This document shows, piece after piece, positions 1,060-56,264 of a stretch of DNA of 64,000 nucleotides. The first letter of the stretch is position 1. Each line of letters starts with the position of its first letter. The notes beneath the pieces are model-generated. The model had not been told where the DNA came from and made no database searches. It saw only the letters and a program-made list of their open reading frames with translations. Location: positions 18,923,753 through 18,987,752 of the forward strand of contig NC_090290.1 in the NCBI RefSeq assembly GCF_037392515.1, given 5' to 3'. Origin of the DNA: Haliotis asinina (taxonomy: Eukaryota > Mollusca > Gastropoda > Lepetellida > Haliotidae). A program made the translations under genes and the position numbers.

Positions 1060-2106
1060 CTACTGACATTCCTCCATCACATCCTGTGGTTCCTCCTTTA
1101 CTTTAACTTGGTACAGATCCACAATACAACTCTCCTGTTGGGTGTTCTCTGGACAAGTCTCTTCCTTCTTGTGTTCACTGTGATGCATGTATCGCTCAAA
1201 CTCTTCTCCTGCACAATCTCTTCTTCGTCCCCACATGCCCACAATGTCTTCCGGTATTATATTAACCTCTTTGTCACGCCCTTCCTGTCTTATTGCCTTT
1301 TCAATGTTTTCAGAAATATTCATATCAGTCATACTTTCTTCATCTTCTGAGTCTCTGATTTGATTCTCATTCTCTATAATGAGTCCACTATGATTAATGG
1401 TCTTTTCAGTCATACTAACACACAGCTCTCTCTGTCTGTTGATCTTATCTCGGTGCACCCTCATGTGGGCATTGAGGTTCCCTGAGGTCGTGCATCCTCT
1501 GTCACAGAACTGACATCGGTATGGCCTTTCTCCAGTGTGGGTTCGGATATGAATCCTTAGTGATGACGCTTCTGCGAAGCATTTAGCACAGATGTCGCAC
1601 ATATAGGGTCTCTCATCGGAGTGACAGATAAGGTGGCGTTTTAGAGTGCTTGATCTGGCAAACCCTCTAAAACACTGGTCACATTTGAATGGCCTCTCTC
1701 CTGTATGCACACGAATATGTTCTTGAACCAGCACAAAGTGTGCAAATGACTTCTGACAATGCTTGCACTGATATTTGCGGTCACCTTCTATGTTAGTCCA
1801 ATGTTCTGAAGGCTCGTGATATTTTTTGGGGCGCCCTATCTTGTGGCGGTCTTCAATTCCCCCTGTTTCTTTTAGACGTGTTGCAAACCTACAAATAACC
1901 GAGGTTGCAACATTCATGATTTTGGAGATCTGTCTTTGAGATGTACCATCTTGAAGAAGTGACCTGATTTTCTCTCTTTTTTCCCTTGACAGTTTCCTCA
2001 AACGCTTTTTCTCTGTCGGCTTTTCAATTTCTGGAATTGGTATTTCATCGCTGCATGTTTTCCCTTTCTGACGAGATGCGGGCATTACAGCATTTTGCCT
2101 TGGCAT
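1060..2106 (-). CDS. HTH plus four C2H2 zinc-finger protein
   Basis: An uninterrupted 348-residue frame. Residues about 40-95 form a helix-turn-helix resembling the DNA-binding head of Tc1/mariner transposases (core SQRQISKIMNVATSVICRF), ending in a basic GRPKK segment. Four C2H2 fingers follow at about 112-134, 140-162, 168-190 and 196-218, joined by TGERPF/SDERPY/TGERPY linkers. Fingers 1-3 have regular C-x2-C-x12-H-x3-H spacing; finger 4 has Cys where the conserved Phe usually lies. The acidic C-terminal part ends with VKVKEEP, which fits a sumoylation consensus. The role is probably sequence-specific DNA binding in the nucleus, perhaps repression; the targets are unknown. The start is the first ATG after an apparent 3' splice site, so the coding part may be a single exon. 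The fusion suggests a domesticated transposase domain. The gene appears intact; no orthologue was recognised by name. Confidence 0.85.
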   Translation of the reverse strand: MPRQNAVMPASRQKGKTCSDEIPIPEIEKPTEKKRLRKLSREKREKIRSLLQDGTSQRQISKIMNVATSVICRFATRLKETGGIEDRHKIGRPKKYHEPSEHWTNIEGDRKYQCKHCQKSFAHFVLVQEHIRVHTGERPFKCDQCFRGFARSSTLKRHLICHSDERPYMCDICAKCFAEASSLRIHIRTHTGERPYRCQFCDRGCTTSGNLNAHMRVHRDKINRQRELCVSMTEKTINHSGLIIENENQIRDSEDEESMTDMNISENIEKAIRQEGRDKEVNIIPEDIVGMWGRRRDCAGEEFERYMHHSEHKKEETCPENTQQESCIVDLYQVKVKEEPQDVMEECQ

Positions 2107-2235
2107 TCTCTTGATTTATGGTAGCACTCTCACTCTTACTCTGTGGAGTGTGGTCTAATCACTGGTATGACTTCATGACATTCAAGACTTCTGCTTCTCC
2201 TGGTCTAAATTATCTGCAAAAAAAAAAAAAAAAAT
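2107..2235 (-). promoter_or_regulatory. 5' UTR exon start and 3' splice site of the zinc-finger gene
   Basis: Read on the minus strand, a run of 14 T's followed by gcag sits at about 2235-2217, an excellent polypyrimidine tract plus AG acceptor. The roughly 110 bp between it and the ATG at 2106 has no other start codon in frame and would be 5' UTR. The upstream non-coding exon was not located. Confidence 0.55.
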
Positions 2236-3779: not shown

Positions 3780-4945
3780 CACTTGAAAACATTCTACTTA
3801 ACCAGACAAACATCCTTGACAAGCACAGCAAACCAAACCTCATCCAGACTCACTTAGACTCATACTACCAGAATCATACCCACATATACACAGATGCATC
3901 CATCGCACACAACAAACCCATAGGAATAGGCATACATGTACATACAACTCCCACAATAACCACAAACCTACATTATACAAATTACACTAACATCAACACA
4001 GCAGAACTTACATCCATTCTCACAGCTCTCCATATCAGCCCAACCCTCCCATCCACACACTTCCTAATAATCACCGACTCGCTATCAGCTATTAAACAAC
4101 TCAAAAACAAACACCATCATCACCCTACAAATTCACTCACTAAACCAACTAAATAAACATATTACATTTTTATGGATCCCTGCACACACACTTAACATAG
4201 GCATTAAGACAGCAGGCACAGCAACAAAACTAGTCACTACCCATCCATCCCCACCCATTCACTTACACACATCCATAACAGAAATTAAACAGCTCATCAA
4301 ATCACACATATCCACGCTTAGCTACAAACATAACATAAACACAAGCAAGTCCATCTGGGTCAAAAGCATCATCACACAGCCCATCACCAAAACACCCACA
4401 TTTTCAGAATCATCCTTCATGGACAACCTCATCACACGTCTAATCACAGGCAACGCAAACTTAAATCACAATCTTTTCACACAAAACAGACACCCTGATG
4501 GGCTTTGCTCCCATTGCAAACCCCTAGAAACAACAGAACACATCTCCACACAATGCCACTTCCAACACTCTAACATCATTCAACTACAAAACTCTCTAAA
4601 AGCCAAACACCAAAATAACATCTATCACTTACTCAGCCCCCTAAACCCCAAAACTATCTTTAATGCCAGAGCCATATACCAAAACAGACCCAGCTACTTC
4701 CACCACACTGCCTCTCCTCTCCAGAGCCACCTAATCCTATAGATAACGGTATCACAAACTGGAGGACGGTCGTCTTCTCCGACGTACGCCCCAGGCCAAC
4801 AAAGCTCCCCAAAACAAACGCTATACCGCTACCCAGTTACATAACACATAGCCCCTCTCACAGCCCCTCCCGCAGAACATGTAAACAACCAAGCTATTAA
4901 TACACACTAAACCCTCATTTCACAAATCTGTACAGTTATTACAAC
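3780..4945 (+). mobile_element. 5'-truncated LINE: RNase H domain and C-terminal zinc knuckle
   Basis: From 3881 the frame reads YTDASIAHNKPIGIGI, then AELTSILTAL and FLIITDSLSAIKQL, the RNase H motifs carried by non-LTR elements of the I/R1/LOA/Tad-type clades. A later segment has ITFLWIPAHT, also typical of this RNase H. After a frame change, 4419-4742 holds a Cys/His cluster (CSHCKPLETTEHISTQCHF) as at the C-terminus of these polyproteins. The reverse transcriptase is missing, so the copy is 5'-truncated, and internal stops and a frameshift show it is dead. The plus strand is very rich in A and C and poor in G, unlike the flanks. From 4743 to about 4945 lies probable 3' UTR. Confidence 0.75.
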
Positions 4946-9460: not shown

Positions 9461-10760
9461 CACACAGATGAAGCGAGAAAGATTTTGCTCCAACCGAAGC
9501 CTACAGATAAGTGAAACAGGAACTGAAGGAATTTGGTCAGTCATGTGACTATTTGTGGTGCTTCAGGAGAAGACAAGACAACAATGGCTCTGGTGCTGGG
9601 TTCACAGTATAGACAAAAGGGATACGAGGTCGTGTTTGTGGACAGACTTAAGAAGTTTGACTTTGACCGCTGCCTTATTACTTACTCAAGAGTATTCCTC
9701 ATTGTAGATGATTTGTTTAGTACAGTTGGGGTATCTGCTAATACTTCACATGTTAAATACTTTCTGAATAATCTTCTCCCCCATTTAGAACAAAAGCAGA
9801 GAGCAGCAAAGGAACAGAAGTCAGAAATGAGCGAAAACAGAGATTACAGTATAAAAATCCAGGAAGAAAATGCAAAGTGTCAAAGAATGTGAAACAAAGG
9901 ATATTCATGTTGTCTTCACATCAAAATCCTACAATTTCCTTGATGGACTTGCAAAATTGCAGTATGAGGGTTTCAAATTGTTCAAGGGTCAAACTGTAGT
10001 GGACTTAACAAAACAAGAAAAATGCAGACTTTCTGACAAAGAGAAAAAGACAATATTTGAACAACATAGGCGTGCCTTTGGTGACTACTCTGTGCAACAT
10101 ATTCCAGATTATAGTGAGCTAGAAGTCTATGTATATGGATATCCTCTCATTGTAAACTTTGTTTTGAATTTTCCTCATTTTGTAAAAAACGCAAAATCGT
10201 TTTTCAAGGAACCACTGTTTTATCTTAGGTTAGAACTAAAGCAGTTACTTGAAGACAGAAATGATAAATCTGCCATTTTGGTTCTGATGCTGCTGTGTGA
10301 AGACAAATTGAACCTGACCAGGATAGACAGTGGAGATGAAGACAAGGAAATGGACAGGATGGTCAAAGCTGTTCAAGACCTGATGCCTAGTACTACACGT
10401 TCAGGAATGTACAAAGCAGCTAAAAGTTTTCGAGGTACATTCTTCACAAGAGGAGACACTATCGGCTTTGCCCATTCTTCCATCTATGATGCTTGTGCCT
10501 GCACCTTGTACAATACCAGTCCTGTCTTTGTTTTGAAGCATTGTAATGATGACTTTCTGTTTGAAAGACTACAAGGTGAAAAGGTTGAAGAAACTAAAGT
10601 TGATGATCATCTCCATCTTATATATGTCTCAGATAATTATGATGACCTACTTTCCACATGCTTTTTTTGTACCTGGGTACTTTTGGGAACAGGAAAGATG
10701 CAGTCATGGTCAAAAACAATGCTATCAGTGTTCACGAAACAGTCTGTAGCCAAATCTTAG
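9446..10760 (+). pseudogene. nSTAND3-like P-loop NTPase, decayed
   Basis: Similarity starts around 9481 (DFAPTEAYR), continues KQELKEFG, then HVTICGASGEDKTTMALVLG, an altered Walker A with Asp where Gly precedes the Lys, then YEVVFVDRLKKFDFDRCL and the Walker B VFLIVDDLFSTVG. A second frame from 9870 carries HVVFTSKSYNFLDGLAKLQ (sensor region), VVDLTKQEKCRLSDKEKKTI, EQHRRAFGDY and a helical tail to GFAHSSIYDACACTLY and on to 10760. This order fits the nSTAND3 NTPases that occur in large numbers in molluscs, often fused to HEPN or death-fold domains and thought to act in innate defence. One stop near 9496, a frameshift near 9530 and another near 9870-9890 break it; the mutated Walker A also argues for loss of function. 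An intron-containing active gene is possible but no good splice pairs explain the frame changes. Confidence 0.75.
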
Positions 10761-11021: not shown

Positions 11022-11993
11022 CAACTGTCGTAAGTCTATGTTGAAGTATGGGAGCTGCAATCACCTTAGCGCTATGACTGTCCTTAGTCTATGTTAAAGT
11101 ATGGGAGTTGTGATCACCTTAGTGCTCTATGACTGTCGTAAGTCTATGTGAAGTATGGGAGTTGTGATCACCTTAGTGGTGTGACTGTTTTAAGTCTATG
11201 TTAAAGTATGGGAGTTGTGATCACCTTAGTGCTCTATGACTGTCGTAAGTCTATGTGAAGTATGGGAGTTGTGATCACCTTAGTGCTCTATGACTGTCGT
11301 AAGTCTATGTTAAAGTATGGGAGTTGTGATCACCTTAGTGCTCTATGACTGTCGTAAGTCTATGTGAAGTATGGGAGTTGTGATCACCTTAGTGCTCTAT
11401 GACTGTCGTAAATCTGTGTTAAAGTATGGGAGTTGTGATCACCTTAGTGCTCTATGACTGTCGTAAGTCTATGTGAAGTATGGGAGTTGTGATCACCTTA
11501 GTGCTCTATGACTGTCGTAAGTCTATGTTAAAGTATGGGAGTTGTGATCACCTTAGTGCTCTATGACTGTCGTAAGTCTATGTGAAGTATGGGAGTTGTG
11601 ATCACCTTAGTGCTCTATGACTGTCGTAAGTCTATGTGAAGTATGGGAGTTGTGATCACCTTAGTGCTCTATGACTGTCGTAAGTCTATGTTAAAGTATG
11701 GGAGTTGTGATCACCTTAGTGCTCTATGACTGTCGTAAGTCTATGTGAAGTATGGGAGTTGTGATCACCTTAGTGCTCTATGACTGTCGTAAGTCTATGT
11801 TAAAGTATGGGAGTTGTGATCACCTTAGTGCTCTATGACTGTCGTAAGTCTATGTGAAGTATGGGAGTTGTGATCACCTTAGTGCTCTATGACTGTCGTA
11901 AGTCTATGTGAAGTATGGGAGTTGTGATCACCTTAGTGCTATGACTGTTTTAAGTCTATGTTAAAGTATGGGAGTTGCAATCACCTTAGTGCT
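11022..11993. repeat. 54/55-bp satellite array, about 18 units
   Basis: The unit runs atgactgtcgtaagtctatg, then (ttaaag or tgaag), then tatgggagttgtgatcacct and tagtgctct. Units with tgaag are 54 bp and those with ttaaag 55 bp; they mostly alternate, giving a dimer of about 109 bp, with two places (near 11580-11636 and 11852-11907) where two tgaag units are adjacent. Edge units are the most divergent. Very high similarity inside the array indicates recent homogenisation. Confidence 0.95.
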
Positions 11994-13535
11994 CAATATC
12001 CAGTACTTTTTCGTGAGTCAGGTAAACTTTCTCCACTACCTTGTTTAACAGTAACTCAAAGAATACATAAAGTTAAATTCTCCTTAAGTTTCTTTAAAAC
12101 GGGAGAACATTGCAATGATTTCAGCCCATGTGACTTAGAAAAGAAACTCACTCATGATAACTTATGTGAACTCAGACATACTAGTGTCTGCATGTATTAG
12201 TTATTCCATATTGTATTTAAATGCTGCATGCCTTGTGCATTTATAATCTGGATGTATAAAATGGCGTTCAAGGATCCAAACAAAACATTTATTGTGGTAA
12301 TGCTTTTACTATACCCCTACATCTGGTATGGTTAATCAGAAATTGTGTCAAGGTTATTGATTTGCTAAATGATTGTTTCACTTCTCAGATAGGTACAACC
12401 AAAGACAGATCCTATCTGAGACATTTACGTGTATTTTGACATTTTGAGGTTTCTGTTCCTCAGATATGTAGGCATTCTATTGATATTTCTTATTGATATT
12501 GCATTCTTATATCATTTATGTGTATTCTAATCTATGCTATTGATCTGGATATGATTATATTGATATATGTGTATGATGAAGCTTAAACCATTTATCAGTT
12601 GCATGCGACATCCTCTACAACAGAAGGGGCATGTATAACCGGGACATTTAGAGTTGAAAATATTAAAATACATTTGACAAAAATTTAAGACAAATTTGAA
12701 GTTAAGTTAGGAAGGGTCAATGTACTGGGAAAGTGCATTGACCAAGTAACCGAATTTTTATGGATTCACTTTTCTTGGGGGAATGGCAATTCCTCTGAAG
12801 TGACATAAACTAGGACCTTCTGATTCTACATGATTATGGGGACGGACATTCAGATACTAATGGTCAGTGTGTCAATAAAAGGGCTCGAAGAGGTTCTGGA
12901 ATAATTTTTATCTTCTGGAGCCTACCAGTCGGAAAATGTATTTGATATTTTGTCAAGTATGTCAATGTTTGTTTGATGGATGGCTTAAGTTTATTAACAA
13001 AGCAATTTTATTCTGGGAGAACTTGATGGTTTCAAATAAAGTCTCGGAAAGGGACTAATGAACGTAACTAATTATTAAGACTGGGTATGAGTCATTTTTG
13101 TATGATGTAGGGCATTATTTTGGTGGGAGGAGCCTAAATTGTCATGACCTCTACTTTGTTAGTTGAGTCGTGAGTCGTGAGTCGTGAGTCGTGAGTCGTG
13201 AGTCGTGCGCGATTCTGGGCTGCACCGTTGACTTGAGAGGTTCCATCGGTATACTGAGAGAATGGCTCAGATGAACTTATATTAACAGAAGTTGCACGAG
13301 AAACCAAGTTCTTCCAGGAAGTTGTAACCTAATGTTGTGTGTAGACCAGAAAAACTAGGAAGTATCTGAGGACCTTTGCTTGTGAAAAACCGTTCCAAAA
13401 ATAAAAGGACTTGAACGTGGACTTATCCTTGATTATTCCATCTAGCTACATCATACCCAGACAAAGAGTGGAGGAAATACAGATTGCAGAGGAAGAAGGG
13501 TATAACACCCAGACAGCCTCAGGTAACATTATCTA
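11994..13535. other. 1.5-kb segment separating two parts of the satellite
   Basis: Non-repetitive DNA bounded on both sides by satellite units. It contains a run of the 7-mer gtgagtc at 13163-13207 and a weak aataaa at 13399, but no recognised coding sequence and no clear terminal repeats. It may be an insertion into the array or older unique DNA overrun by it. Confidence 0.4.
13163..13207. repeat. Short tandem repeat (GTGAGTC)n
   Basis: Six or so consecutive copies of the 7-mer. Confidence 0.9.
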
Positions 13536-21587: not shown

Positions 21588-52140
<30,553 letters not shown>

Positions 52141-52349: not shown

Positions 52350-55300
52350 ATGGCAGCCGAATACTTCAGCATCGGAAGTTCTGTTGCTGTCACAACATGC
52401 CACAACATAGAATATAAAGGAGAAGTTCTTGCATTTGACTGGACATCCAAGGTCCTTGCCATCAGTATCCTTTCTATATAACATTTGAAATAATATTTCT
52501 AGAAATGTCGAAATGACTGTCCTCAGTGACCACGTTCGGTTTTCGATCACTATGGTTACAATGTGTCATCTCTGCAAACATGTTTCAAGATAAACCTCAG
52601 ACCGTGTTTGATTGTTATTTATTCAGAGATATTTGTTGTTCATTTAGTTATCGGTACGTTTTCTTTGTCTATTATGAAACTTTGACTTGATTATTTCACT
52701 CAAGGTTCAAATGTCAAACACCATAACATGTGTCAAGATATTTATAAATTATGCCAACTTGAAAAAGCTTTCCCATTTCAATAGTTATTGGTGTTACTTC
52801 AGCCACAATATTTATCATAATGCAAATTCACATGGTGTGAGCCTACAATAGACAGTGTTGACCTAGATAATTTCTATTTCTTACTATTTTTGTTGAAAGC
52901 CATTCAGAGTCCCAGTGATGTATTAACTATTTCTTTAACTTGTAAAAGAATCTGAACCTACAAATGGAGCAAGAGGTCAAAGTGATGTTAAGCTCATCAA
53001 CCTGGCCTTGGTCAGTGATGTCAAAGTCCTGAAAGAAGCAGATGATCAGCCACAAGCACTGACAAACCTAAACCTACCCAGGGTAAGAATATTTTTGTGC
53101 ACAGTTACAGAAGCTGAAGAAGCATGAACTAGATGCTCTATACTACTTATGAAGGATTTAGTGATTGATGCATTTTCCTTACAATGTTGTTTTATTTGTG
53201 TGGGTTCTGATTCATAAGGCATTCATAATGTTATGCACTATTGTATACCATTAACTACTGAAGATTCTGATGAGAATATTTGCTTCCAGTAACTCATGTT
53301 TGTCATAAGAGGCGACTAATGGGAATCGGGTGGTCAGACTCACTGACTTGGTTGACACATGTCATCGGTTTCCCATTGTGCAGATAGATGCTCATGCTGG
53401 TGATCACTGGATTGTCTGGTCCAAACTTGATTGTTTGCAGACCTGTGCCATATAGCTGAAATATTGTGGAGAGCAGCGTAAAACTAAACTCACCCACTAT
53501 CGTTTACCATTATGTTACGAATATATGGGATATATGTATCTGGACCTGAGTAGAGTCAAGTATTTGTCTCCAAGGATGATCCTCATGTAAAATTGACATG
53601 GTTCCAAATGAATTGAACATTTTTTGAATTGATGTGAACATAGTTATTGCTTTATACAGTGATCCAATGGAGACTTCTATTTAACTAATAACATGACAAA
53701 GAGAACATTGTGGAGGTTGATTTAATTTTTGGCTTGATATTATTATTATTATTATTGAATGTAAGAAACAATGCATTTGAATGGAAATATCTCGCCAGTT
53801 TGGACAAAGTAGGCATATTCCCAGAGTTACAGTAATATGAGACACTTCTTGAGCTGAAATAGAATCTCACAGTATAGCTCAGTGATTTGACCTATCCTCA
53901 GTAACCTCCAAGCTAAGATTTGACATTTTTGTGTGTAGTCATGTAAGATCAATTTTATTGAGTAGTTGCAAAACTTCAAGCTTACCTGCATGGGAATGGC
54001 TTAATCGGAATTGAGTTTCAAGATATATATTTGCTTAATTTATGCAGGTATGCAGCTTATCTGTACCATTGCAATGATATGACCTCAGGCCTAATCCCAG
54101 AGCATTTTTGGTTGCCAAAAACATGTTTTGGCTTGATTTTGATTTGTAAGAATCTAAAACATGTCTCTGGGTTTCACTGAATCTTAGCCTGTCTAAGCTG
54201 TCTAACCTGTGACTGTATTCATGGATCACATGTTTGCTTTTACAATTCAGTTCTAATTGAATTATTATGGCAGATAAAGAACCGACTGAGGGATAGTTTA
54301 GAGGAGAAGCGGAGACAAGTTAACTATGTCGGAGTGGGTGTGCCACCAGAAGGACAGAAGATCTTTTTTGCAATAACAAAAACGTAAGTAGACTTATTTT
54401 TCATTTTTTGTCTTTCTGACCCATGAAGCTCCAGGTTAGATTTGGTCATCAGAATGCTTGCTTGTCGTAAGAGGCAGCTAACAGAACTTGATTGACACAC
54501 ATCATCATATTCAAGTCGTGTAGGTAAATGCTTGTACTATTGATCACTGTATTGTCTGGTGCAGACCTGAATATTTACAGACCGTCAATATATAGCTGAA
54601 TATTGCTGAATATGGCGACACACCGACCAAACTTTTGTTTCTTTTCTGTTTCTGGGACAACCATGGCACTACACCATCTTATTAAATTCCAATATTTGAC
54701 TCTCCTGTATGAAGGTCTGAAATAACAGCCTGTGCACAAGATGGCAAGCCAAGATCAAGGCCTCATAATTGTCTGTGCTGTTGATCAAAGAATCTGATGA
54801 TCAAAGCAAACACTTTGTCCATTAGGCTACCCCATGGCACCTTACGATCTTAGAGGCATCTGGCACCTTACGATCTTAGAGGCATCTTTTCAGAACAAAA
54901 CATTTTAACCCATGCTTGTCTCCTTGAGGATCTGTGTTAGAATTGATCTATCTGCTTGTCGTAAGAGGAAACTAACAGGATCAGGGGGTCAGGCTTGTCA
55001 GCTTGGTAGACACATTTCATCTTATCCTAATTATGTAGATTGAATTTCATGCTGTTTATCATTTGACTGTCTGGTCCAGACTCGATTATGTACGCGCCGC
55101 TGCCATATAGCTGGAATATTGTTGAGTGCGGTGTAAAACTAAACCCATCCACTCACTTCTTTATATTTGACAGATTTGGGACATTTAAGGAATCTCGCTC
55201 ACATGATCGGAACTCCCATACTTTAACATAGATGTAGGACTGTCGTACTATTATTGCTTTGAGGATCAGGGACCTGGAATATTGGCACCTGTTAAAGTGT

Positions 55301-56264
55301 TTTGATCATTCTATTGTAATGTATGTCTGCCTCTGTTTGTATCAGTATCAGTGATGTGCGGTGGGACGGCAGTAACATCATCGTCATGGATGAAGTGGTC
55401 ATCAAGCCTCCATACAGATTAGAAGACTGCAGTGCACGCAAATCTGAGTCATCACAAGCACTCCAACATGTTAGAAAAATCGTAAGTTTTTTCTCTATGT
55501 GAGACCTGTGAAGAGAATAGTAGAATAGGTCTTCTGCAACCCATGCATGCCACAAGAAGCGTAAGCGGTGACTAATGGGATCGGGTGGTTGGGCACGCTG
55601 ACTTGGTTGACATGTCATTGGTTCCCAGTTGCGCAGATCGATGCTCATGCAGTTGATCACTAGATTGTCTGGACCAGACTCAATTCTTTTCAGCCCGCCA
55701 CCCCAAAGCTGTAATATTGCTGAGTGCGGCGTTAAACCTGACTCACTCATTCATCATTTGATTTTATACCTGAGGCGTGTGTTCTTTGAGTGAGCAAGTT
55801 TATTTACTAAACTTAACTCACTAACTCACCCCATCTGTAACTGGTGCTGGTAACACTCTACCATGGGAATATAGCCTTGTAGTAAAAGTGTCCTCTCATC
55901 CCGCTGAAGACTGGGCTTCGAATCCCCCCATGGGTAAAATGTGTGAAATCCATTTAAGGTGTTCCCCACTGTGGGGAATCACACTCACACTCACAATCAC
56001 ACTCACTAACTCTTCACTAGCTGGTACTTGTGACTTGGGAACAGATTGCCCAGTGATCTCATTGAATGGTTGAAAGTTAAGTGTGTCGGGCACTCATGTG
56101 GGGCGCATGATTTTAAGTTCTATGTGTTTTATGTATGCAAAGTGGAAATATTTAAGAAAACTCCTCTGTTGCAGGTATCTAAATTTCTGCAGGAGGAGAC
56201 CAGTCAAGCAGAGAGGAAATCCATGTCGCCATCACCTGCCCCCTCATCATCCTCATCGACATAG
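52350..56264 (+). CDS. LSM12: LSM12 orthologue (5 coding exons)
   Basis: Coding exons 52350-52464, 52949-53082, 54274-54383, 55346-55481, 56175-56264; phases agree, 585 bp, 194 residues plus TAG, against about 195 in human. All introns are GT-AG. Residues 1-70 form the Lsm domain (AAEYFSIGSSVAVTTCHNIE, GEVLAFDWTSKVLAI, VKLINLALVSDVKVL); residues about 85-175 form the anticodon-binding-like AD domain (KNRLRDSLEEKRRQVNYVGV, ISDVRWDGSNIIVMDEVVIK, PPYRLEDC, ALQHVRKI). The tail is Ser/Pro-rich. Known LSM12 proteins associate with ataxin-2 and RNA-binding complexes in the cytoplasm, and mammalian LSM12 has been reported as an NAADP receptor. ATG 52350 gives MAAEYFS like vertebrate MAAPPGEYFS; an in-frame ATG at 52344 would add two residues. 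The gene looks intact and is head to head with CCDC177. Confidence 0.95.
53285..53499 (+). mobile_element. SINE-A copy in LSM12 intron 2
   Basis: Has gtcataagaggcgactaatg, gactcactgacttggttgac and ends gcagcgtaaaactaaactca. Confidence 0.85.
54448..54620 (+). mobile_element. SINE-A copy in LSM12 intron 3
   Basis: Has gcttgtcgtaagaggcagct, acttgattgacacacatcat and tatagctgaatattgctgaa. Confidence 0.7.
54950..55156 (+). mobile_element. SINE-A copy in LSM12 intron 3
   Basis: Has gcttgtcgtaagaggaaact and ends gctggaatattgttgagtgc then ggtgtaaaactaaaccca. Confidence 0.8.
55205..55248 (-). repeat. Single relic of the 54/55-bp satellite unit
   Basis: The reverse complement of this stretch reads cgacagtcctacatctatgt then taaagtatgggagttccgat, matching the ttaaag-type unit of the array at 11022-11993. 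It sits about 50 bp past a SINE-A. Confidence 0.75.
55503..55748 (+). mobile_element. SINE-A copy, near full length, in LSM12 intron 4
   Basis: Starts gacctgtgaagagaatagta and ends ggcgttaaacctgactcact; begins about 20 bp after the exon 4 donor. Confidence 0.85.
55862..55985 (+). mobile_element. SINE-B copy, degenerate
   Basis: Has atagccttgtagtaaaagtg, gggcttcgaatccccccatg and gtgtgaaatccatttaaggt. Confidence 0.65.

Follow-up and report, generated by a model that had tools for sequence, protein, structure and literature searches.

Host proteins that have captured a transposase head are already known. KRABINER, POGK and POGZ carry mariner or pogo heads, often with a KRAB domain or with the catalytic domain kept; SETMAR joins a SET domain to a mariner transposase. 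Pax proteins, also compared here, keep both the PAI and the RED parts. In this study, we have analyzed a 64,000-nucleotide stretch of DNA from the gastropod Haliotis asinina (contig NC_090290.1, positions 18,923,753 to 18,987,752 of the forward strand; hereafter the window) and, within it, an intact minus-strand coding sequence at 1060..2106 (stop codon 1060-1062) for a 348-amino-acid protein that combines a helix-turn-helix (HTH) with four C2H2 zinc fingers. Like KRABINER, POGK and POGZ, this protein appears to unite, in a single frame, the DNA-binding part of a transposase with a host regulatory protein, but here the head is the PAI half of a Tc1 head, its partner is a set of four C2H2 fingers, and neither a catalytic domain nor KRAB is among the Pfam families listed for it. 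SETMAR resembles it in having a transposase-derived head and differs in having no zinc fingers. The Pax paired domain has a PAI-type HTH, as Tc1 heads do, yet its profile scores lie clearly apart from those of the family described here. Based on our sequence comparisons, we infer, with a probability of roughly 85%, that an old fusion of host and transposase sequence has turned into a small family of bipartite DNA-binding regulators, in which a Tc1-like head is followed by a four-finger C2H2 array.

In Caenorhabditis, the F-box A2 family is reported to have captured an N-terminal Tc1/mariner HTH, with a single origin, expansion and purifying selection (PMC12062965). The likeness to the window family lies in a captured Tc1/mariner HTH carried by multicopy host genes, and the difference lies in the partner, which is F-box/FTH there and C2H2 here. 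There, the captured HTH is reported to take no part in regulating transcription and may mediate protein interactions (PMC12062965), and for this reason a regulatory reading of the window family calls for caution. For SETMAR, targeting of the transposon ends that remain in the genome has been reported in cells (PMC8327481). In molluscs, Mukherjee and Moroz described HTH-Psq, CENPB and other transposon-derived DNA-binding domains in regulators (PMC10027918); in the main text of their article, "C2H2" and "paired" occur 0 times and "Tc1" once, unlike the make-up of the window family. A family uniting a Tc1 PAI with C2H2 fingers was not found in the literature searched, which excluded most subscription papers.

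A family of genes with one architecture

The preliminary description of this locus, made from the letters alone, had proposed an intact 348-codon frame joining a transposase-like HTH to four C2H2 fingers and an acidic tail with a possible sumoylation site. A whole-genome search confirmed the frame, which runs from ATG to stop with 0 internal stops and matches the genome at 100% (C11:18924815-18925858, C11 being the contig of the window). From the N-terminus, the parts follow one another as HTH, GRPKK, four C2H2 fingers, acidic tail and C-terminal VKEEP, all encoded on the minus strand. Residues 39-86 (1849..1992) form the Tc1-type HTH and correspond to the PAI subdomain of a transposase DNA-binding domain, as placed by Pfam, profile scores and alignment with Tc1 heads. 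In the same alignment, GRPKK at residues 91-95 (1822..1836) is the counterpart of the GRPR/GRRR AT-hook-like motif of transposases. The fusion junction comes next (residues 96-113; 1768..1821); in the alignment, its W103 is kept in all six genes described below, and the RED part of the transposase is missing from here on.

The fingers lie at residues 114-134 (1705..1767; motif and family comparison), 142-162 (1621..1683; Pfam and motif), 170-190 (1537..1599; Pfam, motif and family comparison) and 198-218 (1453..1515; motif and family comparison). Pfam recognizes four C2H2 stretches well over the cut-off (zf-H2C2_2, 76.8 bits; zf-C2H2, 67.1 bits), and the pattern C-x2-C-x12-H-x3-H is present in 4/4 fingers of the window protein, with four such fingers in each of the six family proteins. 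The fast-evolving tail (residues 220-348; 1063..1449; composition and family comparison) is indeed acidic, with 33 D/E and 17 K/R among 129 residues. It ends in VKEEPQDVMEECQ and contains, at residues 336-340 (1087..1101), the sumoylation-type motif VKEEP; the pattern [VIL]KxEP arises by chance in 0.5% of shuffles of this tail, and in 0.2-2.3% across the tails of the family. Neither DDE nor Tc3_2 is among the 25 Pfam families listed for the full protein, and KRAB, BTB and SCAN are absent both from these 25 and from the 10 listed for the first 111 residues. The preliminary description had considered that the HTH might prove a BTB/homeodomain relic; no BTB or homeobox-family model is among the families listed, except for generic homeodomain-like HTH models.

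Searching the genome of the same animal with the whole protein, we found that this architecture occurs in at least six intact genes: the window gene, two more on C11 and three on contig C2. The two C11 paralogues, L003 (at 18990127) and L002 (at 18994153), lie 2.4 and 6.4 kb past the end of the window, and 64 and 68 kb from the window gene. The C2 cluster, at 49.70-49.73 Mb, has a near-identical second copy at 53.03-53.06 Mb. The two regions concerned (49.694-49.734 and 53.030-53.070 Mb) are about 40 kb long, 3.3 Mb apart and 98.0-99.2% identical, and may represent either a segment duplicated recently or a haplotype left unmerged in the assembly. Because of this identity, the second copy (53.03-53.07 Mb) was left out of the gene count, and the C2 genes are counted as three rather than six. 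Another C2 copy of a family gene is broken in both versions of the region.

All six frames, of 340-460 residues, are intact and have their parts in the identical order: HTH, GRP[KR], four C2H2 fingers, acidic tail and KxEP. GRPK or GRPR occurs in five of them, L003 having RRPK; [VIL]KxEP is found in the tail of every one, close to the C-terminus in all but L003, where it lies 77 residues short of the open frame's end. The HTH of the window gene is 61% identical to those of the other C11 genes and 35-36% identical to those on C2, and the residues ahead of the HTH number 35-42 in the C11 members versus 3 in the C2 members. The preliminary description had also allowed for an architecture unique to this locus, which is ruled out by the six genes that share it and by their low ratios of nonsynonymous to synonymous differences (pN/pS). 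Of two scans of viral contigs, the first gave no relative and the second gave one contig, filed as viral in IMG/VR (L053, 4704-5204), which matches in the finger region only, with C2H2 fingers 41% identical.

Purifying selection acts on both the HTH and the finger halves. We calculated pN/pS as Nei-Gojobori values, with 95% intervals from a codon bootstrap, for the within-cluster pairs, three from C11 and three from C2; these are not independent, the three C2 genes are close relatives, and the six proteins or pairs should not be read as six independent cases. For the HTH and the fingers, the interval lies below 1 in 6/6 within-cluster pairs, the widest being 0.12-0.96 (HTH, L004-L006), and for the tail it does so in 5/6, reaching 0.57-1.00 in L001-L002. 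When C11 genes are compared with C2 genes, the fingers show saturation of silent sites in 9/9 pairs, and the remaining parts show either saturation or values above 1.1. We also compared the fingers at the four positions of each that we take to be the contact positions. From finger 1 to finger 4, the number that vary is 3, 2, 3 and 0 in the C11 trio and 4, 2, 3 and 0 in the C2 trio; for fingers 1-3 this amounts to 8/12 (C11) and 9/12 (C2), versus 13/51 and 9/51 at other positions. The contact residues of fingers 1 and 3 differ among the family, and those of finger 4 (T, G, N, A) are the same in 6/6 genes. A separate observation concerns L002 and L003, between which synonymous divergence (dS) is 0.45 in the fingers, saturated in the HTH and 2.0 in the tail; because silent differences are far fewer in the fingers than in the HTH or the tail, gene conversion of the finger region is suggested.

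Comparison with Tc1-like transposases

When the genome was searched with the HTH (150 of 3,700 candidates scored), the top nine places went to family genes, three of which were counted twice through the duplicated C2 region. After them came, among the matches listed, dispersed loci 30-44% identical to the window HTH, including the broken C2 copy. We fetched 21 of the non-family loci: a transposase body was detected in 20/21 (tblastn) and a C2H2 motif in 0/21 (six frames), and the six family loci have four or five C2H2 motifs each. Pfam found HTH_Tnp_Tc3_2 in all four of the longer non-family frames submitted (once below the cut-off) and DDE_3 in two. Conversely, queries made from transposase bodies gave 0 matches in the family genes of the fetched cluster regions; they matched at separate places on C2 only, and none was found in 104 kb of C11. 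We also noted an HTH-bearing open frame of 388 amino acids that occurs with identical scores at dozens of loci scattered over many contigs, as though it had spread recently; it is presumably a Tc1-like transposase.

The heads of the C2 proteins start with MPRLSKE(E/Q)RE and end with GRPRIIPTxDQTW (GRPRIIPSRDETW in L008). Tc1 transposases of the same genome start with MPRLTAEQRER, reach GRPRVTTPAEDQYL and then continue into their next domain. The C2 proteins diverge from them just past GRPR, where RED is expected to start, and the fingers stand in the place of RED and the catalytic domain. Because C2 proteins and transposases share the stretch from the MPRL start through GRPR, the captured piece looks like the N-terminal portion of a transposase, start included, up to roughly the point where RED begins. 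In Sleeping Beauty, the corresponding GRRR is reported to have an AT-hook role (PMC7827188).

In a tree of 26 heads, made of the six family members, 19 fetched Tc1 heads and the Tc1 copy on C2, the family lies on one side of a branch with support 91/96. Against solved structures, the family HTH profile gave 23.5 bits with the Sleeping Beauty PAI (2m8e) and 20.3 with Prd (1pdn), some other HTH proteins scoring higher. On the profile scores given below, the best explanation of the HTH is that it represents the PAI half of the DNA-binding domain of a Tc1-like transposase. Repeat-like, apparently designed chains that stood high in the PDB lists were set aside as helix-after-helix matches, and the resolvase and bacterial HTH labels (HTH_7, HTH_38, HTH_29) were not accepted as a family assignment, these being generic models that also match the C2 heads. 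As for the other half of the protein, a genome search with fingers 3-4 returned as its ten best matches nine from the family (duplicated C2 copies counted) and one broken copy, followed by ordinary zinc-finger frames.

Proposed explanation and its rivals

In the explanation that we favor, the head of a Tc1-like transposase would have been captured from its own start through the PAI HTH and the GRPR AT-hook-like motif, stopping at the start of RED. An in-frame fusion would have linked it to a C2H2 array of four fingers and to an acidic tail bearing a sumoylation-type site, leaving the catalytic domain absent. This fusion would have arisen probably once, before the C11 and C2 clusters split, and would have been followed by local duplication at both. 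The PAI/AT-hook part would bind one short element, as it formerly did in transposon ends, the fingers would bind an adjacent element, and the tail would recruit cofactors, probably via SUMO, and would hence probably be repressive. Single capture and a regulatory role are thus what we infer, together with DNA binding by both halves, which the domains and the selection on them suggest, and repression, to which the tail alone points. If this explanation holds, the family exemplifies a partial-domain swap, in which, of the two parts of a transposase head, PAI alone was taken and zinc fingers occupy the place of RED, and it would be a clear example of mobile DNA as a supplier of new regulatory proteins. 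The six paralogues make possible a direct test of whether the captured head retains its old specificity for transposon ends.

Several observations weigh against this explanation, to which the make-up of the profiles and trees, given below with the Pax comparison, must be added. For the full window protein, the HTH models stay under their cut-offs (HTH_29, 25.7 vs 28.1 bits; HTH_38, 24.7 vs 27; HTH_7, 20.3 vs 23.8; PAX, 16.6 vs 22), and for the first 111 residues alone only HTH_7 comes narrowly over (24.1), the remaining HTH models being under. For fingers 3-4, the best non-family match (57%, 69.8 bits) scores only a little lower than the most diverged family copy (54%, 75 bits). Finally, neither the donor Tc1 element nor the donor zinc-finger gene was identified in the same genome. 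Because the HTH of the window protein scores under the Pfam cut-offs, annotation based on cut-offs could label such genes plain zinc-finger proteins, and more such fusions may be hidden in invertebrate genomes; the HTH_38 cut-off is passed by L003, L004 and L008.

The rival that survives best, although we consider it unlikely, is that the family serves genome defence: the PAI head would bind the ends of Tc1-like elements and silence them, while the fingers would add a specificity that tracks changing targets. The dispersed Tc1-like loci with their transposase bodies, the KxEP site conserved in the family and the greater variability of fingers 1-3 at the presumed contact positions would all fit such a role. 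So would Sleeping Beauty, in which PAI is reportedly the chief part in recognizing specific bases of the terminal repeats (PMC7827188). However, the HTH is only 30-44% identical to the non-family heads listed, and no known repressor domain is among the 25 Pfam families listed for the window protein. A more specific version, in which PAI would still read Tc1 terminal repeats, the contacts of fingers 1-3 would diverge to follow new targets with finger 4 unchanged, and silencing would be recruited by the SUMO-type tail, appears to us slightly less likely again. If true, such an anti-transposon family would give this lineage an analogue of the KRAB zinc-finger proteins in which the DNA-reading part comes from the transposon itself.

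We consider it improbable that the HTH is a decayed host Pax paired domain, reduced to its PAI half and fused to zinc fingers. Pax and Tc1 heads are alike, and the PAX model of Pfam matches weakly, with 19.6 bits in L002 and 18.8 bits for the isolated N-terminus of the window protein. Nevertheless, the cut-off of 22 is not reached (16.6-19.6 bits in the window gene, L002 and L003), the three C2 heads give no match at E<=0.01, and little can be concluded from a weak PAX score, given that the 388-amino-acid HTH frames also match the PAX model at about 30 bits. We gave more weight to profiles built from the same genome. A Tc1-head profile (from 19 of the 21 fetched loci, two short ones dropped; the 21 had been chosen by likeness to the window HTH, which tilts the comparison toward Tc1) scores 6/6 family members at 56.2-72.6 bits and the four Pax exons at 25.9-35.4 bits, whereas the Pax profile, made of four exons only, gives 9.3-21.9 bits for the family and 4.8-25.5 bits for the Tc1 heads. 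The family HTH profile, in turn, scores 50.2-69.5 bits on 21/21 Tc1-type loci and 16.1-19.1 bits on 4/4 Pax exons, and the Tc1/mariner likeness claimed in the preliminary description is supported as Tc1-like and far from Pax. The alignment agrees, with GRP[KR] in the family where Pax has GGSKP[RK]. In the best tree that includes Pax, with the 19 fetched heads, the family forms a group (80/82) together with 11 Tc1 heads, most of which are of the MPRL type, and Pax forms its own clade (100/100), the placement of which has support of only 57/2; a clade of the family plus Pax is nevertheless not rejected by the approximately unbiased (AU) test (p-AU 0.26). These trees come from 76-77 columns and drew a long-branch warning from the tree tool. 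A Pax origin is therefore rejected on the profile scores, though not by the AU tree test.

The weakest rival, that the frames were kept open by chance after a recent transposon insertion beside zinc-finger genes, with no domestication, could draw on the one further, broken C2 copy and on the Tc1-like element present in the C2 region, but it is highly implausible in the face of six intact paralogues, of the near-complete saturation of silent sites in comparisons of C11 with C2 genes, and of pN/pS below 1 on the HTH and fingers in every within-cluster pair. Unless the alignment is wrong, the selection result already refutes it.

Flanks of the gene and the rest of the window

On the 5' side of the ATG, a T tract followed by GCAG (2214..2234, minus strand) is, judged by its sequence, a candidate 3' splice site and therefore suggests a non-coding 5' exon upstream of the window gene; by eye, acceptor-like sites also stand directly before the ATG in other family genes. 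Degenerate short repeats, 71-72% alike, occupy 603-1036, directly 3' of the stop codon. A dispersed repeat of about 200-270 bases has copies in the window at 2305-2563, 35656-35910, 42638-42889, 51134-51387, 53291-53498 and 55487-55753; one copy lies just 5' of the window gene and one 5' of L002.

Elsewhere in the window, the plus strand has open frames of 223 codons (4071-4739) and 301 codons (9855-10757), the former presumably resembling the C-terminal end of a retrotransposon lacking long terminal repeats (non-LTR). Two tandem arrays are also present, one at 11024-11997, whose units measure about 54 bases and are 91-96% alike, and the other at 44805-45425, whose units measure about 100 bases and are 80-90% alike.
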